A stretch of 64,000 nucleotides of DNA, from assembly GCF_024138715.1 (NCBI RefSeq), contig NZ_CP092074.1, forward strand, positions 744,001 to 808,000, given 5' to 3'. Source of the stretch: Emticicia sp. 21SJ11W-3 (GTDB lineage: Bacteria > Bacteroidota > Bacteroidia > Cytophagales > Spirosomataceae). A program made the position numbers and the translations under genes. This document shows positions 7,247 through 47,253 of this stretch, piece after piece. How positions within the stretch are numbered: position 1 is the stretch's first letter; each line of letters begins with the position of its first letter. The notes under the pieces are model-generated. The model ran no database searches and was not told where the DNA came from. It saw only the letters and a list, made by a program, of their open reading frames with translations.

Positions 7247-10200
7247 ATGAAAAAATCAATCATTTTTTCTATCACTGTTCTATTGTTATCAGTTGCCTTT
7301 AGGCAAGACTCAGGGAAACTCTCAGACGAAGAATATGCCAAACTGACAGAAGAAGATAAACGGAAAGTGCAATATGCACTGGATGGCGTAAAACTGGCCG
7401 ACCCTGAACTGGAGGTAACACTTTTTGCCTCTGAGCCAATGATGATGAACCCCACCAACATGGATATTGACGCCAAAGGCAGGGTATGGATTTGCGAAGG
7501 CTACAATTACCGCAATCAGCTAAATCCAAAGAATCCATATAACAAAAAGGGCGACAGAATTTTGATTCTGGAAGATACAGATAAAGATGGAAAAGCCGAT
7601 AAAACCACTGTGTTTTATCAGGGTGAAGAGATTAACTCGGCTTTAGGCGTATCGGTGCTGGGCAATAAAGTAATTGTGTCTTGTAGCCCTAATGTGTTTT
7701 TGTTCACCGATGAAAACGGAGACGACAAGGCAGATAAAAAGGAAGTGATTTTTACCAACCTGAAAGGGGTACAGCACGACCACGCCATTCATGCCTTTAC
7801 ATTTGGGCCTGATGGTAAGTTGTACTTTAATGGGGGTAATGAGATAGAAACCCTGAGTGATAAAAACGGAGTAGAGCTGAAAGACGACCTGGGCAGACCT
7901 TTTTCAAGCTACAAGCAGGGGAAGATTTTCAGATGTGATGTGGATGGCTCGAACGTGGAGATTCTTGCACACAATTTCAGAAATAATTATGAAGTAGCCA
8001 TTGATTCTTACGGCAGAATGTGGCAATCTGATAACGATGATGACGGCAACAAGGGCGTGCGTATCAACTACGTAATAGATCATGGCAACTATGGCTATAA
8101 AGATGAAATGACCGGGGCAAGCTGGCAGGAACGGCGCACGAACTGGGAAAACGAAATACCTTTGCGCCACTGGCACCTGAATGACCCCGGCGTAGTGCCT
8201 AATCTGCTACAGACAGGGGCAGGTTCACCAACCGGCATGATTATCTACGAGGGCGATTTGCTACCGCAAAAGTACCGCAATCAGATGATTCATTGCGATG
8301 CCGGGCCAAACATTGTGCGCTCTTACGCAGTAGAAAAAAGTGGCGCTGGATTCAAGGCCACCATCAACAATATTCTGGATGGCTCAACCCGAGACAAGTG
8401 GTTCCGCCCGTCTGATGTAACAACAGCGCCCGACGGCTCTATTTTTATTGCCGACTGGTACGACCCGGGCGTGGGCGGCCATGCCATGGGAGACAGCCTT
8501 CGCGGGCGAATTTATCGTGTAGCACCCAAAGGAAGCAAATTCTCGGTACCGGTCTTTGATTTTGAAACGCCTGAAGGCTGCGTAAAAGCCCTGCAGAATC
8601 CGAATCTGGCTGTGCGTTATTTGGCCTGGACAAAACTAAACCAATGGCAGGAAAAAGCTGAACCTGCATTGCAGACCATGTGGACTTCTGAAAACCCGCG
8701 TATACGCGCCAGAGCCTTATGGTTGCTGGCTAACATAAAAGGCGAAGAGAAGAAATATATTAATGCCGCTCTGACAGACAAAAACGAAGATGTACGCATG
8801 GTTGGTCTGCGTTTGGCGCAGGAGCTTAAAATGACAGATTTTGCAGTACTGACCAAATTGGCGCAAGACCCTTCGCCGCAAATCAGAAGGGAAGTGGCAT
8901 TGGCTATTCGTCATAGTAAAAATCCGGAGGCTGCCAATATCTGGGTATCACTGGCTAACCAATACGATGGCACCGACCGATGGTATCTGGAGGCGCTGGG
9001 TATTGCTGCCGATAACCAATGGGATAGCTTTTTTGCCAAATACATAGAAAACATAGGCGAAAGCTGGAAATCTGATGCCAAAGCCAAAGATATGGTGTGG
9101 AGAAGCCGCTCGACCGACAATATTTACCGGCTCGCTGAATTAGCCAAAACTTCAGAAGGCGAGGCCAGACTAAGATATTTCCGTGCTTTTGATTTTCAGT
9201 CGAATCCGGAAAAAACCACAGTGCTGCTGGGTATGCTGGATGGTGGCAAGGCACCTGCCGATGTAATGACCTTGGTTTTTAAGCATCTTGATGTTGAAAG
9301 TGCTAAAAAAGATGCGCGCTATGCTGCGCTTTTGCCTAAAGTGCTGGCGGGTATTCAATCGCCCTCCGATTACCTGGATATTGTAAAACGTTATCAGTTG
9401 AAAGACCAGTCAACTCGTTTGGTGAATATGGTAATGGACGACAAAACATTTGGTGGTGAGGCAGCCAGACTACAGATTAGATTAAATGGGCTGGATGCAT
9501 TTAAGAAACTGACCACCAGCAAGGATGAAAAAACAGTGCTGAAAGCGATAGATATGTTTGGCGGCGTTGACGAAAAGCCAGTTACCGATTATCTGATAAC
9601 CTTATACAACAATAAAGCGAAGAGCATGGCAGTACGCGAAAGAGCCATGTGGGCCATGACTGGCTGGAACAGTGAAGAGATTCTGTGGAATCTGGTGAAA
9701 GCCAATAAGGTGCCCGAAGATGTAATGCCGATTGCACAGAAAATACTATTGAAAACCTGGCATGGCGACATCCGTTCAGAGGCCATGAAAATGTTCGGAG
9801 CAAGTGTTGATAAGTCGGTTGGTAATATCAATGACCTCGTGAAACTGACCGGTAATGCATCAAAAGGACAGGAAGCATTTAAGATGTATTGTACTTCATG
9901 CCACGTGGGTAAGGGCGAAGGCGTTAATTTTGGCCCTGCCTTGACCGAGATTGGTAGTAAATTATCTAAAGATGCTTTGTATTCTGCAATTCTGAACCCA
10001 AGTCAGGGTATCAGTTTCGGTTTTGAGGGCTTTACGGTAAAATTTAAAAACGGCACTGAAGTAGACGGAATGATATTGACCAGAACCGAAAACGACGTTA
10101 CAATGAAAACGCTTGGCAGCGCTAACCCTTCCTCATACAAGCGTTCTGAGATTGTATCTATCAAAGAACACAAAGAGTCGCTGATGCCACAGTTTCCGTT

Positions 10201-35543: not shown

Positions 35544-36061
35544 CCAAATGATACAATAATACTTTAATAAAAAACGTAAATATTTACATGGATTATATTA
35601 TACATTAACTATCTGTGATTAATCTGGTTCTCATTTATTTTCTATCAAAACTTCATCGTTTAAGGTTCAAAATGTTAAAATCCGCAATTGTAAAACTAAA
35701 AAGTAAGCATTGATTCATTGCGGTAGTGTTTTTTAAAAATTAAGCAAAATTTAGATGAACCCCGACCTCGGCATCCTTTTTTTGCTCCTCTAATTTCCAC
35801 AGCTTCATAACTCAGTAGTAGATTTATCAAAAAAACAGTTTAAGACGTCTGCAAATTTATTTGTTCCGGATGTTTCATAGTATTTTTATGCTTTTTTTAA
35901 TTTATAAAAAAAACATGAAAAATTTGGAAAATTTAAAGCATGCTTCTATAATTGTGCAAAATACACTTATCAGGATAATTCAATACTTTCCTTTTTAAGT
36001 GAAAAACAAAAATCTTTAATTACAATTTATTTTTTACTTTTTTTTTAACTAAAACAAAACT

Positions 36062-39000
36062 ATGAAACAAAACTACTTTGTGCCCATAAGGGGTGCTCTG
36101 ATTTGTGGACTACTCTGGATGATGTCCATAGTAGCATTTGCACAAAAATCTGTCAGTGGTAAAGTAAGTGATGCGAGAGGGGAAGCCATTCCAGGCGCCA
36201 GTATCTCTGTAAAAGGAACAACAACCGGTACAATTTCAGATGCAGAAGGTAACTTTAAAATTAATGTGCCAACTGCAGGTGGTACTTTGGTAATCAGCTC
36301 AATTGGTTACAAAACTGTTCAGGTTGCTCTAGCTAATCAGAGTACATTGAACATTACTCTTGAAGATGATGCATCAGGTCTTGATGAAGTAGTTGTAACC
36401 GGATACACGGTTGATAAAAGACGTGAGTCTACCGGTGCCATCTCTACTGTAAAAACGAAAGACCTTACTACGGTTCCAAGTTCAAGTGTTGAACAACAGT
36501 TACAAGGTAGAGTAGCGGGTTTAACAGTTGTAACCACCAGCCAGCCTGGTTCTGGCAGCCAGATTCGCGTACGCGGTTTTGGTGCATTTGGTGGTAACGA
36601 GCCTTTGACAATTATAGATGGTTTGCCAAGTACCGATGCAAGTTATCTGAACCCTGAAGATATCGAAACAACAACAGTTTTGAAAGACGCCTCGACAGCT
36701 TCTTTCTACGGTGCCAGAGCTGCTAACGGTGTAATTATTTACACCACTAAGAAAGGTAAGAAAAATGCGAAAAAACTAAACGTAACTTATGATGGTGTGT
36801 TTGGTTTTACAGACCCGGGCAAAGGTCAGCAAATGATGAATCCACAGGATCAGGCAACCTGGACCTGGACGGCATTAAAAAACTCTGGAGCCCCATTGTC
36901 TCACCCTCAATATGGTTCTGGAGCAACTCCAATTATTCCTGATTACCTGAAAGTTGGTGACAGAAGCGGTGTTGTGGGTACTATCGATTTAGCTGCTGAA
37001 AAACTGAAATACAACATAACCGGGCCAACAATCGGTGATTTCTATCAGGTTATTAAAGCAAACAAACAAGGTACTGACTGGTATAAAGAGCTAACCCAAA
37101 CCGGAACAATTCAAAGACACTCACTTGGCTTTGAAGGTGGTGGAGATGCTTCTCGTTTTTTTGTTGGGTTATCACTACTAGACCAACAAGGTATATTGCC
37201 AAGCCAGAGAGCCAAACGTATTGCCATGCGTGTAAACTCTGAGTTTGATCTTTTCAAAAACGTAAGAATCGGTGAAAACATCCAGCTTACGTATCTTCAA
37301 ATCCTTGGCCGTCAGGGTGGTAACAACGGTTTGCAATCATCTCAGGATGAAAACGACATCCTGGCTGCTTTCAGAGCCCCAACAATCCTTCCGGTTCGCG
37401 ATGAGTTCGGTGGTTGGGCTGGTACGACTGCACTTGGATTTGGTCAGGGCTCAAACCCAGTAGCTAACCAACAGGCAGGTAAGTTAAACAAAAACTTTAA
37501 TGGAATTGTTGCGGGTAACTTCTACGTTGAAGTAGATGTTATCAAAGATTTAACATTACGTTCTTCTATTGGTGGAACTTACAACAACTCTTATGGTTGG
37601 GGGTATGGTCGTCCGATTTATGAAACCCTTGAAAACAAAAGTGTGGTATGGTCTTATAACGAGAACGCCCGCTTTAATTTAGCATGGACTTTCACCAATA
37701 CCATTGCGTACAAAAAGAAATTTGGTATACATAATCTAGAGGTTCTGGCTGGTCAGGAAGCACTTAATACCGGATTCGGTAAGAATATTTCTGCTGACGG
37801 TCGTGCGCCTTTCTCTGGTGACCCTAACTATATTACCATTTCTACGCTTGATATCAGAAACCCTGCAAACAGTGGTAAAGAGAATGGCGTTAATTTTAAC
37901 GCGTACTTTGGCAGAGCAGTTTATTCCCTAAAAGATAAATACATTCTTACCGGGATTATCAGACGCGACGGTTCTTCGCGCTTTGGTTCCAATAACAGAT
38001 ATGGTGTGTTCCCTGCAGTATCTGCTGCCTGGAGACTTTCAGACGAACCATTCATGAAGAGCTTGTCTTGGGTAAATGACCTGAAAATCAGAGGGGGTTA
38101 TGGTACAATGGGTAACTCAAACAACGTATCTCCGGTTAACCAGTTCAATCTTTACGAACAAAACGTTGGTACATCAGGTTATGACATTAACGGTACGAAC
38201 GCTGGTATAGTAGGCGGTTTCAGACAGTCACGCATTGGTAACCCAAATGCTAAATGGGAAACCAGTATCACTAAAAACATTGGTTTTGATGGTTCATTCC
38301 TGAAAGGTAAATTGGATGTTATCTTAGATTTGTGGCAAAAAGACACCAAGGACCTACTATATACCTTGCCAATTACACAAACAGTAGGCGGAGCTACCGC
38401 ACCTTCAGTTAACGTGGGTACAATGGTAAACAAAGGTATTGATATTCAGGTTATTACAAGAGGCAAATGGGGTACAGACTTAGGTTATTCATTTGACGTA
38501 ACCGGTAGTTTCCTTAATAACGAAATTACAGAAATTGGTGGAGGTCTTAAATACCTTCAGGATGTGAACCCTGGTTTCAGAGGTGTAAACCCTATACGTA
38601 ACCAATTGGGTTATTCGTTATCTTCTTTCTATGGTTACAAAGTTGTTGGCTTGTTTCAGACGCAAGACCAGGTTAACCAGGCTTTGTTAGAAAAAGCAAC
38701 ACCTGGCGCTGCAATACCAACGCAAGTAGGTGCTGGTCTTGGTCGTTTCCGTTATGCTGACCTGAACGGTGACGGCAAAATTGATGCTGACGACCGTACC
38801 TATTTAGGTAGCCCGGTTCCTAAATTTACAGGTGGGTTAAACTTCAGCCTTTCTTATAAGAATTTTGAGATGCTTGCCTACTTCTATACTTCAATCGGTA
38901 ACAAAATCTTTAATATGTCTAAAAGATTTACAGATTTCTATCCGTTGTTTGCTGGTGCTGCTATCTCTGAGCGTGTTAAAAACTCTTGGAGCCCTGAAAA

Positions 39001-39322
39001 TCCAAATACAGATATCCCACGTTTTGAACAAAATGACGGTTTCAGTACTGGTTCTCAATCAAGCAGTTTCTATGTTGAAGATGGTTCTTATTTAAGATTC
39101 CAAAACCTTTCAATTGCTTACAATGTGCCTAGTGCAATTGCAAGAAAAATGAAATTAGGAAGAATTCGCGTGAATGCCGCAGTTAATAACTTATTCACAG
39201 TTACTAAGTATAGCGGTCTTGACCCTCAAGTGGCAGGTGCTGCTGATACTAACTTTGGGGTAGATTTGGGTAACTTCCCAATGACTCGTCAGGTAACGTT
39301 TGGTTTAAATGTTGGATTCTAA
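36062..39322 (+). CDS. SusC/RagA-family TonB-linked outer membrane protein (first)
   Basis: 1086 aa. Signal peptide (MSIVAFAQ), carboxypeptidase-regulatory-like domain (about 30-110; VSGKVSDARGEAIPGASISV), the region DEVVVTGYTVDKRR, plug domain (LQGRVAGLTVVTT, IRVRGFGAFGGNEPLTIIDG), then a 22-strand barrel ending in an aromatic residue (FGLNVGF). It imports large oligomers together with its SusD lid, powered by TonB. The substrate is not readable from sequence. The first 80 residues are nearly identical to those of the second SusC at 42216, at DNA level too. susD follows after 24 bases. Confidence 0.96.
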   Translation: MKQNYFVPIRGALICGLLWMMSIVAFAQKSVSGKVSDARGEAIPGASISVKGTTTGTISDAEGNFKINVPTAGGTLVISSIGYKTVQVALANQSTLNITLEDDASGLDEVVVTGYTVDKRRESTGAISTVKTKDLTTVPSSSVEQQLQGRVAGLTVVTTSQPGSGSQIRVRGFGAFGGNEPLTIIDGLPSTDASYLNPEDIETTTVLKDASTASFYGARAANGVIIYTTKKGKKNAKKLNVTYDGVFGFTDPGKGQQMMNPQDQATWTWTALKNSGAPLSHPQYGSGATPIIPDYLKVGDRSGVVGTIDLAAEKLKYNITGPTIGDFYQVIKANKQGTDWYKELTQTGTIQRHSLGFEGGGDASRFFVGLSLLDQQGILPSQRAKRIAMRVNSEFDLFKNVRIGENIQLTYLQILGRQGGNNGLQSSQDENDILAAFRAPTILPVRDEFGGWAGTTALGFGQGSNPVANQQAGKLNKNFNGIVAGNFYVEVDVIKDLTLRSSIGGTYNNSYGWGYGRPIYETLENKSVVWSYNENARFNLAWTFTNTIAYKKKFGIHNLEVLAGQEALNTGFGKNISADGRAPFSGDPNYITISTLDIRNPANSGKENGVNFNAYFGRAVYSLKDKYILTGIIRRDGSSRFGSNNRYGVFPAVSAAWRLSDEPFMKSLSWVNDLKIRGGYGTMGNSNNVSPVNQFNLYEQNVGTSGYDINGTNAGIVGGFRQSRIGNPNAKWETSITKNIGFDGSFLKGKLDVILDLWQKDTKDLLYTLPITQTVGGATAPSVNVGTMVNKGIDIQVITRGKWGTDLGYSFDVTGSFLNNEITEIGGGLKYLQDVNPGFRGVNPIRNQLGYSLSSFYGYKVVGLFQTQDQVNQALLEKATPGAAIPTQVGAGLGRFRYADLNGDGKIDADDRTYLGSPVPKFTGGLNFSLSYKNFEMLAYFYTSIGNKIFNMSKRFTDFYPLFAGAAISERVKNSWSPENPNTDIPRFEQNDGFSTGSQSSSFYVEDGSYLRFQNLSIAYNVPSAIARKMKLGRIRVNAAVNNLFTVTKYSGLDPQVAGAADTNFGVDLGNFPMTRQVTFGLNVGF

Positions 39323-39346: not shown

Positions 39347-41068
39347 ATGAAAAAAGTTAAAATATTAATTTCCAGCTTCGTCCTGTTTGCAGGGATGTAC
39401 GCTTGTAAAGATAGCTTCCTGGATGTGCCTGCTACAGGTACACTCTCTAAGGACCAATTGACCGGTACTGCTGGTCTTGAGGGTTCATTAATTGCAGCTT
39501 ATGCACAGCTGAGTGCGCTTAGCCAAACTCACTCTGGTCCGTCAAACTGGCTTATCGGAAGTATCAGAGGCGGTGATGCCAACAAAGGAACTGACCCGGG
39601 TGATGGTACCGAAATGATTCCGGTTCAAAGATATGAGTATGTATCTACTGATCAGGTGGCTGGTAACGTTTACCAAAGTCATTTTGATGGTGTAGCCAGA
39701 GCAAATGCAGTATTAAGTCTGTTGAAAGATGCATTGCCAAGTGTGAAAGAGGCTGACAAAGCAAGAATTGCAGCTGAAGCGCGTTTTATCAGAGGCCATT
39801 TTTACTTCCAGTTGAAGAGAAACTTCAATATGGTTCCTTATGTAGATGAAAACATTGGCGTAGCGAACGGAATTGAGAAAGTTAAAAATGATACAGACCT
39901 TTGGCCAAAAATCGAGGCTGACTTTAAAGCAGCTTATGATGCTTTGCCAGAGACATCTTCTTCGGTAGGTCGTGCTAATAAATGGGCTGCCGCAACTTAC
40001 CTGGCAAAAACGTATTTGTATCAAAAGAAATATGCAGAAGCAAAAGCACTTTTTGATTTGATTATTGCTAACGGTAAAACAACCGGTGGTAAAAAGTATG
40101 CGCTGTTACCAAAGTATTCTGACCTGTACAGAGTTGCCAACGATAATAACGCAGAGTCAGTTTTTGCGGTTCAGGCAACTGTAAAATCAGGTAGCGGTAA
40201 TAATGCTAACGGCGACTTGCAGCTTAACTTCATTCAAGGTGTTGACCCTGGTACCTGTTGCGGTTTCTTCCAGCCGTCGTTCGAGTTTGTAAACTCATTC
40301 CGTACTGATGCCAATGGTTTACCATTGTTGGATAACTCTTACAATCTTGACGCAAATGCAGTTAAAAATGATATGGGTATTAAATCTGATGAGCCTTTTA
40401 CATTAGATGCTGGTCCGTTAGACCCAAGATTAGACCATTCAGTAGGCCGCAGAGGTATTCCGTTCCTTGATTGGGGTCCTCACACTGGTTTCAGCATGAT
40501 TCGTAACCAACCTAACGGTGGCCCTTACTCTCCTAAAAAGTACATCTTTACTAAGGCAGAGAAAGCAGCAGGTTTGACAGAAACAGGAGGTTGGGGACAC
40601 CAGACCTACAATGCCTACAACGTTACTATTATCAGATTTGCAGACGTTCTGTTAATGGCTGCAGAAGCAGAAATTGAAGTGGGTACTTTGGCCAAAGCTT
40701 TGGAATATACTAATATGGTAAGAGGTCGCGCTACTAATGCATCTGATTTTGTTTCAATCAACGGCCAACCAGCCGCTAATTACAAAATTGGTTTGTATAG
40801 CTCGTTCCCAACTAAAGAATATGCAAGAGCCGCTGTTCGTTTTGAAAGAAGATTAGAGTTGGGTATGGAAGGTTATCGTTTCTATGACCTTGTTCGTTGG
40901 AACGAAGACGTAGAAGCTATCAACCGCTATCTGAAATATGACCAGAAGTTTTTACCAGGTGCATTAGGTGGAGCGGTTTACACAGCTAATAAAGCTTTGT
41001 TCCCGATACCACAATCTCAGATTGACCTTGTAGGTTCTAGTGTATTAAAACAAAATCCTGGATATTAA
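39347..41068 (+). CDS. SusD/RagB-family substrate-binding lipoprotein (first)
   Basis: 573 aa. Lipobox Cys in FAGMYACKDSFLDVP, so surface-anchored. The TPR-like helical SusD fold is evident (VARANAVLSLL, AEARFIRGHFYFQLKR, GRANKWAAATYLAKTYLYQK), with a C-terminal RFERRLELGMEGYRFYDLVR and YPIPQ-type ending (LFPIPQSQIDLVGSSVLKQN). It binds substrate on the surface and closes the paired SusC. Cotranscribed with susC; a strong terminator follows. Confidence 0.96.
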   Translation: MKKVKILISSFVLFAGMYACKDSFLDVPATGTLSKDQLTGTAGLEGSLIAAYAQLSALSQTHSGPSNWLIGSIRGGDANKGTDPGDGTEMIPVQRYEYVSTDQVAGNVYQSHFDGVARANAVLSLLKDALPSVKEADKARIAAEARFIRGHFYFQLKRNFNMVPYVDENIGVANGIEKVKNDTDLWPKIEADFKAAYDALPETSSSVGRANKWAAATYLAKTYLYQKKYAEAKALFDLIIANGKTTGGKKYALLPKYSDLYRVANDNNAESVFAVQATVKSGSGNNANGDLQLNFIQGVDPGTCCGFFQPSFEFVNSFRTDANGLPLLDNSYNLDANAVKNDMGIKSDEPFTLDAGPLDPRLDHSVGRRGIPFLDWGPHTGFSMIRNQPNGGPYSPKKYIFTKAEKAAGLTETGGWGHQTYNAYNVTIIRFADVLLMAAEAEIEVGTLAKALEYTNMVRGRATNASDFVSINGQPAANYKIGLYSSFPTKEYARAAVRFERRLELGMEGYRFYDLVRWNEDVEAINRYLKYDQKFLPGALGGAVYTANKALFPIPQSQIDLVGSSVLKQNPGY

Positions 41069-41096
41069 TATCTAAGATATAATAGGATTACTTCAT

Positions 41097-41133
41097 ATAG
41101 GAGATGGCTGACCGCCATCTCCTATTGTTTTTT
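41097..41133 (+). terminator. Terminator after the first susCD pair
   Basis: Perfect 12-bp stem (41097-41108 with 41114-41125), 5-nt loop, then TGTTTTTT. Confidence 0.9.
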
Positions 41134-41756
41134 AACCACCTCAAAAATTGATAATGGAAAATTTGTTGATTTTTTTGCCTTTTGATGTTGTTTTCTTGCA
41201 AAAAGGAGCAGAATATATTGGGAGAACTAACTGGTGATAAGTTAAAGAACGTTTACTTTAAAAACAATACTTAACGCTCGCGGAACCAGTGGCATTATAG
41301 TGATTAGGTTAATTAGATTGAAAGCAGACTAGTTTACAATTGTCAGGCGTTTGGGTAAAGTACAGGTTATAGAGATATAATAATACAAATCAGGTAAGAT
41401 AATCAGGCTGAGGGAAAAGTAAGTTTCTTCGTTTATTGTAACCGTTGAGAAGTTTACAGATTCCCTTTTGATTGAGAGTAGAAAGATAAAAACAAAGATA
41501 GTAGTAAGATAAGCCTTGTTCGGCTGCTTTTATGCCTTGCTTTAAGCCTGGTTTTTAATTTTTTTTAATAAATGAGTTGCTTTTTTTAAAAAACACAAGC
41601 CCTAGATTAAAATTTATAAAATAAATGGAAAAATTTGGAAAAATTAAAGAATTGACATAATTTGCTCCCGTAATGGAAGAGAACGCGATAAACGCATAAT
41701 TTTTTAACCAAAAACATACTTAACCTATAAAATATTCTGCATTAAGGCATTTTTAT

Positions 41757-41790
41757 TTTGTCTGAAGCCTGATTTGTAATAATATATTTG
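41757..41790 (+). promoter_or_regulatory. Bacteroidetes-type promoter for the second susC
   Basis: TTTG (41757-41760), 22 bases, then TATATTTG (41783-41790), a full -7 match. It implies a leader of about 420 nt before the start codon. Confidence 0.6.
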
Positions 41791-41927
41791 ACCTAATTTT
41801 AACTAATACTGATATAAGCCTATGATAAATTTCCCTTGCATCTACTCGTAAAGCATTTGGAATTCTCGGAGCTAACACTTTTGTATTTCAGGTATTAATA
41901 CTGCCTGAGTTTAGATTATAATTTATA

Positions 41928-42225
41928 AGCGTATGAAAGATAATTTCTTTTCGTTCACTGCACGATAAATCCGGATTATCTTAATAAAAATAAAATTTTT
42001 AAGCATGGTAAAACAGGGGCTGAATGTATTTTTCTTCGCCTGTATGTTGCTGTGTCTAATGATTTTCCACAACTAGTTTTAAAACCCTGTTTTTTGTCTG
42101 ATTTTTTAAGCGTATGAAAGATTAAGTTCTTTCCCCGGTTATGTTCTGTCATTAACGGCAGGATATACTGTTTTTTACAATTAATTTTTAATTTTTAACC
42201 AAACAAAACAAGCGTATGAAAGAAA
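41928..42225 (+). repeat. Three copies of the susC start context AAGCGTATGAAAGA
   Basis: Copies at about 41928, 42109 and 42211. The first opens an 11-codon frame (MKDNFFSFTAR), the second a 3-codon frame (MKD), and the third is the real susC start (MKENYF). A weaker fourth copy (AAGCCTATGATAAA) is at about 41817. Confidence 0.7.
42005..42076 (+). CDS. Possible 23-aa hydrophobic leader peptide
   Basis: MVKQGLNVFFFACMLLCLMI and three more residues: one Lys, then a hydrophobic stretch, like a detached signal peptide. It sits between two decoy susC starts. It may be a relic of a susC 5' end. Confidence 0.25.
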   Translation: MVKQGLNVFFFACMLLCLMIFHN

Positions 42226-45200
42226 ACTACTTTGTACCCATTAGGGGTGCTCTGATTTGTGGCGTACTTTGGCTAATGTCCATTGTAGCTTTTGCCCAAA
42301 AATCTGTTAGTGGTAAGATAAGTGATCCAAAAGGTGAGGCGATCCCTGGTGCCAGTATTTCATTAAAAGGAACTACTACCGGAACCATTTCGGATGCTTC
42401 AGGAAATTACAAAATTAATGTTCCAACCTCTGGTGGGGTGCTTGTGGTGAGTTCGATTGGCTACAGAAATCAGGAAATTGCAGTCGGCAATCAGACAACC
42501 CTGAACATCGTATTAGAATCAGACGAAGCGGCTCTTGATGAGGTGGTTGTAACCGGTTATGGTACTCAGTCAAAAAGAGATATTACAGGCGCTGTAACAA
42601 CAGTAAATGCAAAAGACCTTCAGTCGGTTCCTGCTACAACCTTTGCACAACAATTACAAGGGCGTGCATCTGGTTTGAGTATCGTTAACGACGCAACTCC
42701 CGGGGGTAATGCAACAGTACGTATACGTGGGTTTGGTACCATCGGTAATAATGACCCTCTGTTCATTATTGACGGTGTACCTACTGAAAATCAGGGTAAC
42801 TTAAACCCCAATGACATTGAGACTATCCAGATTCTGAAAGATGCCTCTGCTTCTTCAATTTATGGTTCTCGTGCAGCTAACGGGGTAGTTATCATTACAA
42901 CAAGAAAAGGTAAAATTGGTCCGGCTAAAATTAACTTCTCTGCTTATTATGGTTCACAGAAAGTTTCAGAAAATGTTGAGTCTCTGAATGCCAAGGAACT
43001 CGGACAATACCTTTATCTGGCTGATAAATATGCAGGCAAAACGCCTTCACACGGCCAGTACACTTATGGCCCTAATGGAGAAGTTACCATTCCTGATTAC
43101 GTGTTTCCAAGTGCAGGTAAAGAAGGCGCTGCCAACACCAACCCTGCCTTGTATTCATTAACACCAGACAACATCTACGCCATTACTAAATCGGCAGATA
43201 CCTACTGGTGGGGAGAACTTACCCGCACTGCGCCTATTCAAAACTATCAGTTATCGGCAAGTGGTGGTTCAGAAAACAGCCGCTATGCTTTGTCGGTAGG
43301 TTATTTCTCTCAGGACGGTGTGGTTAAATTTATCGGCTATGACCGTTACACTCTACGCTCAAATACTGAGTTCTCAGCCATTAATAAAAAACTGAGAGTA
43401 GGCGAAAACTTTACCGTAGCGCTTGATAACCGTAAAGGTGGTTTTAGCAACAACGAAGAGCAAAATGCGGTTTCTGGTTCATACAAACACCATCCGTTGC
43501 TTCCGATTTATGACATCAATGGTTTCTTTGCGGGTTCTCGTGGTGCCAACCTGGGTAACAACTCTAACCCTTATGCAACTTTGGCGCGTCAGGCTGATAA
43601 CAGAAGATACAGACTGAGAGGGTTCGGTAATATTTACGGTGAATACGATATCCTTCCGTTCCTTACTTTCAAAACCAGCTTAGGTATTGATATTGTTGGT
43701 GAAAACGGTAAATATATCAGCCGTGCTAACCCTGAGTACATTGAAGGTAGCTTCAACAACGGTTCAGAATCTAACACCAGCTACGACTACCAATGGGTAT
43801 GGCAAAATACCTTATCGTTCAGCAAAGTGTTTGATAACGTACACAAAGTGGATGCTTACATAGGTACTGAGGCCATCAAACAATTTGGCGAATACTTTGG
43901 TGCAACCCGTAATGGCTATGCTTTTGAAACCTTACCGATTATCAGCTACCTTGATCTTGGAGATCCAACCAGAGTTGGTAACTATGGCCGTGTTGGTAAC
44001 GACTACACCCTGTCATCGCAGTTCGGTAAATTCAACTATGCTTACAATGATAAATACCTTGTTCAGGCGATTATCAGAAATGACGCCTCTTCACGTTTCT
44101 TGTCAGCATCACGTAACGCGCTTTTCCCTGCGTTCAGTTTAGGATGGCGTTTGTCTGAAGAGAAATTCATTTCAGGTAACCTGCCTTTTGTTTCAGACTT
44201 GAAACTTCGTTTCGGTTGGGGTAAAACCGGTAACCAGAAAATTGGTAACTACAACGCCTATACTACTTATCGTTCTGATATTTACCATGCAGGGTATCCT
44301 ATTGATGGTAGCCAAACTACTCCGACAATCGGTTACGATACACAAGCATTTGGTAACCCTAAAGCAAAATGGGAAGCTACAACCTCAACTAACATTGGTT
44401 TAGATGCGTCGTTCTTCAAAGGTAAATTGAACTTTGAAATCGATTTGTGGAAACGTGTAACGTCTGATATGTTATTCACTACTCCATTAACTTTCACAGT
44501 GGGTGATGCTAACGCTCCGGCTTTCAACGTAGGGCAGATGACAAACAAAGGTCTTGATATTGGTATTAACTATAAAAACAGCATCAATAACTTCCGTTAT
44601 AGCATTTCTGGTAACTTGTCAACTTACAGAAACAACGTAGACCAACTAGATGCAAGCCCTAACACTCGTTATTTCGGATATGGTTCTCGCGTACCAGCTG
44701 TTACTTTAACTCAGGCTGGCTTACCAATCTCATCATTCTACGGTTACAAAATTCTGGGTATCTTCCAGACACAAGCAGAAGCAGATGCTTGGCCTAAATA
44801 TGAAGACTACAACAAACCTGGTAAATTTAAAGTGGCTGACATTAACGGAGACGGAAAAATCACGGATGCTGACCGTACCATTATCGGTAACCCTCACCCT
44901 GATTTCGTTTACGGTTTGAACCTGAACCTTGGTTACAAAGCGTTTGACCTGACTATTTTTGCCAACGGCACACAAGGTAACGATGTCTTTAACTATACCC
45001 GTTATTTCTCTGATTTCAATACTTTCCAGGGTAACCGTTCTAAACGCGCATTGTACGATGCATGGCAACCAAACCATACTTCAGGTACTGTACCTATTAT
45101 GGATGCCAACGACCAGGTTAGTAGCCGTCCTTCAAGCTATTTCATTGAAGATGGATCGTATTTCCGTATCAAAAATGTACAGTTAACATATAATCTGCCT

Positions 45201-45392
45201 TCAAAAGTTGCTAAGAAAACAGCTTTAGACAATGCACAGATTTACCTTCAGGTTCAGAACTTAGCTACATTTACCAAGTATACCGGTCTTAACCCTGAGA
45301 TTCAGACAGGATCCGATAATACGCTAGGTTTTGATGGTGGATACATGCCTGTATCAAGAACATTTATTGTAGGTGTTAACTTTGGTTTCTAA
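42216..45392 (+). CDS. SusC/RagA-family TonB-linked outer membrane protein (second)
   Basis: 1058 aa with the same layout as the first SusC: signal peptide, regulatory-like domain (VSGKISDPKGEAIPGASISL), DEVVVTGYGTQSKRDITGAV, plug (LQGRASGLSIVND, IRGFGTIGNNDPLFIIDG) and barrel ending VGVNFGF. The barrel diverges strongly from the first copy, so the two pairs probably take up different ligands, or different sizes of one ligand. The N-terminal 80 residues are nearly the same in both. Long leader with repeated start contexts upstream. susD follows after 64 bases. Confidence 0.96.
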   Translation: MKENYFVPIRGALICGVLWLMSIVAFAQKSVSGKISDPKGEAIPGASISLKGTTTGTISDASGNYKINVPTSGGVLVVSSIGYRNQEIAVGNQTTLNIVLESDEAALDEVVVTGYGTQSKRDITGAVTTVNAKDLQSVPATTFAQQLQGRASGLSIVNDATPGGNATVRIRGFGTIGNNDPLFIIDGVPTENQGNLNPNDIETIQILKDASASSIYGSRAANGVVIITTRKGKIGPAKINFSAYYGSQKVSENVESLNAKELGQYLYLADKYAGKTPSHGQYTYGPNGEVTIPDYVFPSAGKEGAANTNPALYSLTPDNIYAITKSADTYWWGELTRTAPIQNYQLSASGGSENSRYALSVGYFSQDGVVKFIGYDRYTLRSNTEFSAINKKLRVGENFTVALDNRKGGFSNNEEQNAVSGSYKHHPLLPIYDINGFFAGSRGANLGNNSNPYATLARQADNRRYRLRGFGNIYGEYDILPFLTFKTSLGIDIVGENGKYISRANPEYIEGSFNNGSESNTSYDYQWVWQNTLSFSKVFDNVHKVDAYIGTEAIKQFGEYFGATRNGYAFETLPIISYLDLGDPTRVGNYGRVGNDYTLSSQFGKFNYAYNDKYLVQAIIRNDASSRFLSASRNALFPAFSLGWRLSEEKFISGNLPFVSDLKLRFGWGKTGNQKIGNYNAYTTYRSDIYHAGYPIDGSQTTPTIGYDTQAFGNPKAKWEATTSTNIGLDASFFKGKLNFEIDLWKRVTSDMLFTTPLTFTVGDANAPAFNVGQMTNKGLDIGINYKNSINNFRYSISGNLSTYRNNVDQLDASPNTRYFGYGSRVPAVTLTQAGLPISSFYGYKILGIFQTQAEADAWPKYEDYNKPGKFKVADINGDGKITDADRTIIGNPHPDFVYGLNLNLGYKAFDLTIFANGTQGNDVFNYTRYFSDFNTFQGNRSKRALYDAWQPNHTSGTVPIMDANDQVSSRPSSYFIEDGSYFRIKNVQLTYNLPSKVAKKTALDNAQIYLQVQNLATFTKYTGLNPEIQTGSDNTLGFDGGYMPVSRTFIVGVNFGF

Positions 45393-45456: not shown

Positions 45457-47253
45457 ATGAAAAGTAACAATATTGTTAAAATATTTCTGGCAACAGGACT
45501 AACGGTAGGACTCGCAGTTGGATGTAGCGATGAATTCCTTACCCGCGAGCCACAAGCCCAATACAGCCCTACCTCGCTGAAAACAGCTAAAGGTGTTGAA
45601 GGCGTATTATTGGGAGCCTATGCAATGATTGACGGAACAGGGCTTGACGGTCAGGACGCCTGGAATAATGATATCCATAACTGGGTTTTTGGTGGTATCC
45701 CATCAGATGATGCCTACAAAGGTACTGACGCCGGTGACCAACCTGAGCAATCGTTCCTTGAAAAATGGGACTTCCAACCTACCAATAACCACATCAAAAA
45801 CAAATGGAGAGGTTTATTTAAAGGTGTGGCACGTGCCAATGACGTAATTAATACCCTTGCTGATGTGAAGGATATTACTGACGCCAGAAAAGCACAGATT
45901 CTGGCTGAAGCGAAGTTCCTTAGAGCTTTGTTCCATTTTGAGGCTAAGAAAATGTGGAAGAATATTCCGTACATTGACGAGAAAATCTTCAATCTTAACG
46001 ACCTTGAAAGTACCAAAGTACCTGTAGATGCAAACGCATGGGCAAAAATTGAGAAAGATTTTGCTGACGCCGCATCGGTTCTTCCTGCAACACAGGCCCA
46101 GGTAGGCCGCCCTACCAAATGGGCTGCCAAGGCTTTTCAGGCTAAGGCTTTGATGTTCCAGGGCTTTGATATCAGCACTGGCGCGGCTAATACAGCTAAA
46201 CTTACAGCGGCCAAAGCACTTTTGGAAGAAATTGTAAACAGCGGTAAATTCAGATTGGTTGATGTGTACAGAGATAACTTTGATGCAAGCACGCGTAACA
46301 ACGCTGAGTCAATCTTCGAAGTACAGTTTGCTTCTTCAAGCGCTACCGGCGACGCCGCCAACCAAGGTGTAGGTCTGGCTCACCCTTATGCGTCTCCTTG
46401 GGGATGTTGCGGGTTCTACCAACCATCACAAAACCTGGTGAATGCATTCAAGACAAGTTCAGACGGATTACCATTAATTGATAATTTCAATGATTCTGAC
46501 GTTAAAAACGACCAGGGCTTAAAATTGGAAGATCCATTCACTCCTTATGATGGTGCGCTTGACCCTCGCTTAGACCAGACAGTTGGTCGTCGTGGTATCT
46601 TGTTTATCGACTACAAAATTCATAATGTAGACTTTATCCGTGACCAAACTTATGCGGGTCCGTACTCGCCTAAAAAACACATTCCTTCTAAGGCATTTAC
46701 GGGCGTAAACGGTTGGGGTAACTTAACCAGCAACAACTACCGTATTATGCGTTATGATATGATTTTGCTTTGGTTGGCAGAGTGTGAAGTGGAAGTAGGT
46801 AGCCTTGAAAAAGCAAGAGAGTTGGTTAACATGATCAGAACCCGTGCAGCTAACCCTGCCGGATTTGTTCAGAAAGCTACTCAGGGTGCAACACGTGACG
46901 CTTACACGCTTGTTTATGATTCACAAGGCAATCCTGTACCTGCTGCTAATTATGTAATTAAAAACTATACCTCCCCCTGGACCAGCAAAGATGTTGCCCG
47001 TAAAGCGGTTCGTTTTGAAAACCGTCTGGAGTTTGGTATGGAAGGACACCGTTTCTTTGACCTCGTAAGATGGGGTATTGCTGCCGATGTATTGAACAAA
47101 TACAATGAGGTAGAAGCTAACAAACGTGTTTATAAGAAAGGTGCCAGATTTGTTAAAGGTAAAAACGAGTTTTATCCAATTCCGCAAGAGGCTATCGACC
47201 GTTCAGAAAAAGACGGCAAGCCAACTTTGGAGCAGGATCCGGCTTACAAATAA
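45457..47253 (+). CDS. SusD/RagB-family substrate-binding lipoprotein (second)
   Basis: 598 aa with lipobox Cys in VGLAVGCSDEFLTREPQ. SusD fold markers: VARANDVINTLADV, ILAEAKFLRALFHFEAKKMW, GRPTKWAAKAFQAKALMF, and RFENRLEFGMEGHRFFDLVR near the C-terminus, ending FYPIPQEAIDRS. Both SusD proteins share a GWCCGFxQPS-like segment (PGTCCGFFQPS and PWGCCGFYQPS) and LDPRLDxxVGRRGI, so they belong to one subfamily. Surface ligand binding with the upstream SusC. Confidence 0.96.
   Translation: MKSNNIVKIFLATGLTVGLAVGCSDEFLTREPQAQYSPTSLKTAKGVEGVLLGAYAMIDGTGLDGQDAWNNDIHNWVFGGIPSDDAYKGTDAGDQPEQSFLEKWDFQPTNNHIKNKWRGLFKGVARANDVINTLADVKDITDARKAQILAEAKFLRALFHFEAKKMWKNIPYIDEKIFNLNDLESTKVPVDANAWAKIEKDFADAASVLPATQAQVGRPTKWAAKAFQAKALMFQGFDISTGAANTAKLTAAKALLEEIVNSGKFRLVDVYRDNFDASTRNNAESIFEVQFASSSATGDAANQGVGLAHPYASPWGCCGFYQPSQNLVNAFKTSSDGLPLIDNFNDSDVKNDQGLKLEDPFTPYDGALDPRLDQTVGRRGILFIDYKIHNVDFIRDQTYAGPYSPKKHIPSKAFTGVNGWGNLTSNNYRIMRYDMILLWLAECEVEVGSLEKARELVNMIRTRAANPAGFVQKATQGATRDAYTLVYDSQGNPVPAANYVIKNYTSPWTSKDVARKAVRFENRLEFGMEGHRFFDLVRWGIAADVLNKYNEVEANKRVYKKGARFVKGKNEFYPIPQEAIDRSEKDGKPTLEQDPAYK

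Follow-up and report, generated by a model that had tools for sequence, protein, structure and literature searches.

The window analysed here is a 64 000 nt stretch of the genome of Emticicia sp. 21SJ11W-3 (NCBI RefSeq assembly GCF_024138715.1, contig NZ_CP092074.1, positions 744,001–808,000, forward strand). At the locus studied, genes for a carboxylesterase and an FG-GAP/UnbV_ASPIC protein accompany two susC/susD pairs. The features of the second pair and of its long leader are collected in Table 1, together with those of the paralogue susC1.

Exact copies of the 14-mer AAGCGTATGAAAGA were located in the window at 41927, 42108 and 42210, on the + strand only, and the third of these spans the susC2 ATG at 42216; three copies ending at the real susC start had been reported in the first-pass annotation of this DNA. 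When up to two mismatches were allowed, four sites were present in the window compared with 0.68 expected, and this number was reached by none of 100 shuffles. The short upstream frames noted at the same time were read from the sequence as MKDNFFSFTAR* (11 codons), MKD* (3 codons) and MVKQGLNVFFFACMLLCLMIFHN* (23 codons at 42005–42076), and the weaker copy placed near 41817 was identified as AAGCCTATGATAAA at 41816, with a homologue in each of three sister species. A still older unit, AACCTATRAAATAT (41722), is common to all four array-bearing species in the leader alignment. Judged from the sequence, the 23-codon frame is probably a decayed repeat unit (unit at about 42001). The spacing of the units is irregular, at 111, 181 and 102 nt in the window genome and 96–133 nt between neighbouring units in the sisters. 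The 12-mer AAGCGTATGAAA is found at six places in the window genome, namely the three copies, the complement in the candidate sRNA described below and two others, which by eye are not at an evident gene start.

The 'full-consensus promoter' annotated earlier at 41757–41790 is present in the sequence but is missing from the three sisters in the leader alignment. A promoter-like block further upstream (41634–41664) is conserved, and a similar block was recognized upstream of susC1 by similarity to that region; from its position the susC2 leader is probably longer than was first thought.

Table 1. Coordinates (window positions) of features at the susC1 and susC2 loci.
Feature	Position	Strand	Remarks
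susC1 leader stretch antisense to antiC1 elements (G000:C1:1652275, G000:C1:3293999)	36014–36056	+	
susC1, paralogue without repeats	36062–39322	+	
Conserved promoter-like block: TTTG (41634–41637), 20 nt spacer, TAATTTG (41658–41664)	41634–41664	+	Kept in three sisters
Oldest degenerate unit, AACCTATAAAATAT	41722–41735	+	ATG lost in G000; AACCTATGAAATAT with ATG in three sisters (leader alignment)
Promoter of the first-pass annotation, TTTG-N22-TATATTTG	41757–41790	+	Not kept in sisters
Degenerate unit, AAGCCTATGATAAA	41816–41829	+	Homologues AAGCCTATGAGAGA (G007), AAGCCGATGAGAGA (G001), AAGCCTATGGGATA (G006)
Repeat copy 1, AAGCGTATGAAAGA	41927–41940	+	uORF MKDNFFSFTAR*; predicted sRNA helix 41923–41941, 19 bp including G-U
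23-codon frame	42005–42076	+	Window genome alone; starts AAGCATGGTAAAA where G001 and G006 hold a full repeat copy
Repeat copy 2, AAGCGTATGAAAGA	42108–42121	+	uORF MKD*; predicted helix 42107–42123, 17 bp; then predicted hairpin GAAAGA/TCTTTC
Repeat copy 3, real susC2 translation start	42210–42223	+	Predicted helix 42208–42223, 16 bp
susC2, TonB-dependent receptor (Plug, CarbopepD_reg_2, barrel)	42216–45392	+	Predicted antiC2 target
susD2	45457–47253	+	Same apparent operon as susC2

Conservation of the array within the genus

A long susC2 leader with clustered copies was found in four of the 11 genomes of the genus, namely the window genome (G000) and three sisters (G001, G006 and G007). The alignment of sister species had been suggested in the first-pass annotation as a check on the repeats, and these proved to be present in all three sisters, with diverged flanks. 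The order of the array is the same in each of the four genomes, with the oldest unit AACCTATRAAATAT followed by a second unit beginning AAGCC and then by AAGCGTATGAAAG copies. Ahead of the real start, full and 13-of-14 copies together number two in G000, two in G007 (one full), three in G001 (two full) and three in G006 (all full), and these copies sit 102–357 nt from the real-start copy. Two copies that predate the four-species split are identical over 13 and 18 nt, with diverged flanks, and the invariant block of unit 2 is the 13 nt complementary to the core of the candidate sRNA. For the pair of upstream copies in G000, all 26 alignment columns are invariant across the four species, compared with 149 of the 324 ungapped columns elsewhere in the leader; this comparison somewhat favours the repeat copies because the leader alignment was anchored by motifs. 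The susC1 leaders of all four array genomes are without repeats, and in the susC1 gene tree these genomes make up one side of a 100/100 branch.

The repeat pattern was absent from the 1 kb upstream region in the seven loci read (L074–L077 and L079–L081) of 13 related susC loci. Two of the seven loci belong to susC2 genes, one in E. aquatilis (G004) and one in the MAG G010, and have a leader of some 390 nt, so that by reading the repeats were absent in two of the seven other Emticicia genomes; in G002, G003, G005, G008 and G009 no susC2 start was found at the fixed offsets used, and an exact 14-mer search returned at most one site in each of the seven. The susC2 leaders of E. aquatilis (L076:2577–3000) and the MAG (L081) have the hairpin GCTCGTAAAGTATTCCCACGAG in common and lack AAGCGTATG repeats. 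In L074 and L075 the susC gene is of the Flectobacillus type, and its long leader, which is conserved from one locus to the other, contains a single ATGAAAGTGAAGCTCC motif.

A complementary element elsewhere in the genome and its predicted pairing

A search of the 11 genus genomes for AAGCGTATGAAAGA gave 19 sites, of which 12 are copies in a leader or at a start. In every array genome (4/4) one site is instead the exact reverse complement, which lies inside GTTAGATTCTAC-TGAATCTTTCATACGCTTGTAGCAAAA and is followed by a hairpin and a T-run; the remaining three sites (G003, G007 and G010) look incidental by eye and are probably in coding DNA. The reversed control pattern had four sites in the same 11 genomes and single 14-mers therefore do occur by chance. 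The element that carries the complement is called antiC2 here, a name coined in this analysis for a candidate sRNA antisense to the susC2 start. In the window genome it is about 100 nt in length (G000:C1:3196009–3196110) and lies outside the window on the same contig, about 2.4 Mb from the start of susC2 (contig position 786216). It is laid out as a 5′ hairpin, a 40 nt core carrying UCUUUCAUACGCUU and an intrinsic terminator; the core has one variable position among the four genomes and the flanks of the element diverge.

Two-sided changes that keep pairing were found in five of the 23 pairs of antiC2 (four in the 5′ hairpin and one in the terminator); this count was matched by 13 of 500 shuffles and the covariation score by 2 of 500, and slid structures gave at most one such pair. 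The minimum free energy of the G000 copy corresponds to z = −5.26 (200 shuffles). A covariance model scored 118–123 bits in the four array genomes, from whose copies it had itself been built, compared with a best score of 38.9 bits among the other genomes of the 222 in the family, where stricter search filters were applied. Each array genome has one strong match to the model, rather than many paralogous copies. Many of the weaker matches resemble unrelated terminators and some are other antisense elements; L185, L188 and L192 are apparent 3′ ends of one gene with an CATACGTATAC-like stretch before the terminator, and this stretch varies among the three. The four genomes with the array are the four with antiC2, out of 11 in the genus; since they form one clade, this co-occurrence may represent a single event.

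In all four genomes antiC2 is divergent from an orthologous pair of genes for a His_kinase histidine kinase and a LytTR response regulator (69–77% identical, G000 versus sisters), and its terminator is therefore unlikely to belong to an upstream gene. This LytTR two-component pair is a candidate regulator of antiC2. A 60-residue probe from the kinase of this pair (L143:2880–4728) matched the same four of 11 genomes, a probe that a diverged kinase could escape. In G000, G006 and G007 antiC2 is overlapped by frames of 55, 58 and 93 codons, respectively, at differing places, and in G001 by none of at least 30 codons; as they are unshared among the genomes, antiC2 is not a shared small gene. A search of Rfam with the four antiC2 loci returned no family at its cut-off, and the leader region 41000–42700 gave two matches, both far under their cut-offs, with no known riboswitch, thermometer or attenuator family. 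By these sequence tests antiC2 has the marks of an sRNA: it is an intergenic terminator-ended unit with conserved secondary structure and conserved complementarity to the start of its target.

The longest helices predicted between the antiC2 core and the + strand of the window begin at 41923 (19 pairs), 42107 (17) and 42208 (16), which are the three repeat copies; the next has 13 pairs, and on the − strand no helix of at least 13 contiguous pairs was found. Shuffled cores gave longest window helices of 12–19 bp, reaching at least 16 in 15 of 100 cases, so that the case for pairing rests on all three top sites being repeats. Predicted duplex energies are −19.6 to −26.2 kcal mol−1 at the full or 13-of-14 copies and −6.3 to −16.9 kcal mol−1 at the degenerate units. 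By duplex energy alone the repeats are not the best sites, as 42-mers on the + strand near 9661 (−30.5) and 7901 (−26.9) and one on the − strand (−28.1) compare with −26.2 for the best copy; none of these low-energy 42-mers outside the repeats forms a helix of more than 13 contiguous pairs. Opening of the site is predicted to cost 3.1–5.8 kcal mol−1 at the upstream copies versus 1.5–3.0 kcal mol−1 at the real start. The resulting net energies of upstream and real-start sites are within about 1 kcal mol−1 of each other in G006 and G007; in G001 the upstream copies are equal or, for one of three, up to 3 kcal mol−1 worse, and in G000 the real start is favoured by about 3 kcal mol−1. In the predicted fold of antiC2 most of the seed is engaged in base pairs, the probability that its 14 nt are open being about 2e-6 to 8e-5; the seed sequence is identical in all four genomes, with no compensatory seed–target change. 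Whole-genome scans for antiC2 targets used exact patterns only. The repeat unit was also considered as a conserved RNA structure in its own right and rejected, the two predicted hairpins of the last upstream unit showing two-sided changes in none of 18 pairs.

Terminator-ended elements antisense to the susC1 leader (36014–36056), termed antiC1, were seen in all four array genomes. The two G000 copies align to this stretch with scores of 52 (29 at the next place in the window) and 50 (39 at the next place). Six antiC1 elements from the four genomes score 45–56 against shuffled maxima of 36–50; the second G000 copy only ties its best shuffle. These elements are L095 and L106 (G000), L096 and L193 (G001), L107 (G006) and L098 (G007), i.e. 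two copies each in G000 and G001. In the non-array clade the susC1 leader sequence differs, and in six of seven genomes it is matched by another terminator-ended element. The predicted duplex runs to 27 contiguous pairs and stops 2 nt short of the ATG in five of the six, and in G002 it consists of 17 pairs, a mismatch and eight pairs; no such element was found in G005, the seventh genome. This element has the form TTTTGATTAGGTTGAAAAATTAGAA plus a GGCTTGT/ACAAGCC hairpin (L224, L225, L226, L235, L236 and L237 in G002, G008, G009, G003, G010 and G004, respectively). Antisense pairing with these susC starts thus recurs in the genus, which makes a chance origin unlikely for antiC2. A third, conserved element ('anti3'; L197, L198, L182 and L180, diverged in G000) carries AAGTAGA(A)TTTTGTTTCATCATAGT before its terminator and is imperfectly antisense to the start-codon region of susC1. 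It was rejected as a perfect antisense of the start of another gene, since its 23-mer (up to two mismatches) was present only in the element itself, in two of 11 genomes.

Possible roles of the upstream copies

From the sequence comparisons the repeats are likely to be tandem target sites of antiC2, acting as a dedicated trans-encoded sRNA, with the upstream copies most likely serving as titrating decoys. If transcribed, antiC2 would form a duplex of 14–19 bp with AAGCGUAUGAAAGA at the true start of susC2 and block ribosome entry there, by analogy with the action of FopS on Bacteroides susC. Each upstream copy has an ATG of its own and would also be bound by antiC2, titrating it, so that susC2 would be shut off only above a threshold of the sRNA; each copy may in addition intercept ribosomes. 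Titration as the role of the upstream copies is given about an even chance, and given the modelled site-opening costs and net energies a decoy role is weakly supported. In the main, though rather unlikely, alternative of additive multi-hit repression every copy would be productive: several sRNAs per leader would destabilize the mRNA or compact the leader, and more copies would mean stronger repression. The same pairing evidence and the similar net energies of upstream and real sites in G006 and G007 are consistent with this, but the upstream copies, at the distances given above, are too far from the real one for a direct steric block of initiation.

The first-pass annotation had read the repeats either as truncated duplications left behind or as translated decoys that control susC. 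The second idea comes close to titration by decoy sites, except that the copies have in common that they are complementary to a conserved sRNA-like element, and not that they encode a conserved peptide. Upstream frames in a susC start context might trap ribosomes and, with no sRNA involved, govern susC expression through re-initiation or stalling, and the ATG does lie in an identical context in each full copy, with MKD* constant in all six last-type upstream units (one each in G000 and G007 and two each in G001 and G006). The frames of unit 2, however, read MKDNFFSFTAR*, MKGIFLLF*, MKVIFSSLLRTHTLL* and MKEIFLLSLLASPSL* and differ in length and peptide in each of the four species; the conserved block is the sRNA complement and includes a GCG upstream of the ATG that is missing at the susC1 start, and pairing alone would also keep the ATG in every full copy. 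Ribosome capture on its own seems improbable. The degenerate older units (at 41722 and at 41816) and the decayed one near 42001 point to birth and death of copies, as would be expected if the susC leader and start had been duplicated in tandem several times and had left non-functional relics; yet the two copies older than the four-species split have kept their 13 and 18 nt and the repeats persist in three of three sisters although the flanks have diverged, so that relics alone are disfavoured and seem very improbable. An equally small probability is attached to repeated DNA operators for a transcription factor, for example the LytTR regulator encoded next to antiC2. The copies are direct repeats with an inner dyad GAAAGA/TCTTTC, but the conserved promoter-like block is upstream of them, one of them covers the start codon, their spacing is irregular and the element that matches them elsewhere in the genome is structured and ends in a terminator.

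Comparison with known systems

No papers were found in a literature search on Emticicia small RNA and, among the matches listed for Emticicia and SusC, 'susc' stood by title for susceptibility or other words. Tandem start-codon target sites in the target's own leader had no literature match among the matches listed. Sponges and target decoys such as the chbBC trap for ChiX and SroC for GcvB are RNA sites that titrate an sRNA, and these are located in other transcripts. The extra susC2 sites differ from both in being tandem copies of the target's own start within its own leader. A cis array of own-start copies that titrates a dedicated sRNA, with copy number setting the threshold, may be compared with microRNA target-mimic arrays; that the Emticicia susC genes of this locus would each have lineage-specific antisense sRNAs, with sRNA and target co-evolving gene by gene, is put forward tentatively as part of the same picture.

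DonS-type antisense RNAs of Bacteroides PULs, in the available text of their description, act on susC homologues and are encoded divergently beside susC (PMC7366714). The predicted action of antiC2 as an antisense RNA on a susC homologue resembles that described in this text, while antiC2 is not beside susC2 but about 2.4 Mb from it.

The closest likeness is to the FopS sRNAs of B. thetaiotaomicron, which, according to the available text, pair near the start codons of susC-like mRNAs and block translation, are opposed by the RRM protein RbpB, and comprise 14 paralogues with several targets and one predicted site per target (PMC11697453). As far as that text goes, antiC2 is alike in its predicted trans action on a susC start. 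Hfq was found in none of the 11 Emticicia genomes, and two RRM genes are present in the window genome. antiC2 differs from the FopS system as described in having one strong model match per genome, in the clustering of its 14-mer only in the susC2 leader and in its several tandem sites. Kinship with FopS/GibS (R1 seed) was assessed through the Rfam search of the antiC2 loci, which gave no family at its cut-off.

Set against the matches listed, the sRNA block of susC starts is known from FopS, and what is new here is that start-codon target sites are arrayed in tandem within the leader of the target itself. The number of sites differs among the four species, which offers a natural series for testing site number against sRNA response, and start-like motifs that recur in a leader can be the trace of an sRNA not yet seen. 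Taken with the available accounts of the gut Bacteroides systems, the findings suggest that sRNA control of SusC transporters extends to Emticicia in another form, which would consist of dedicated sRNA–transporter pairs, including one in which the leader carries a multi-site target array.
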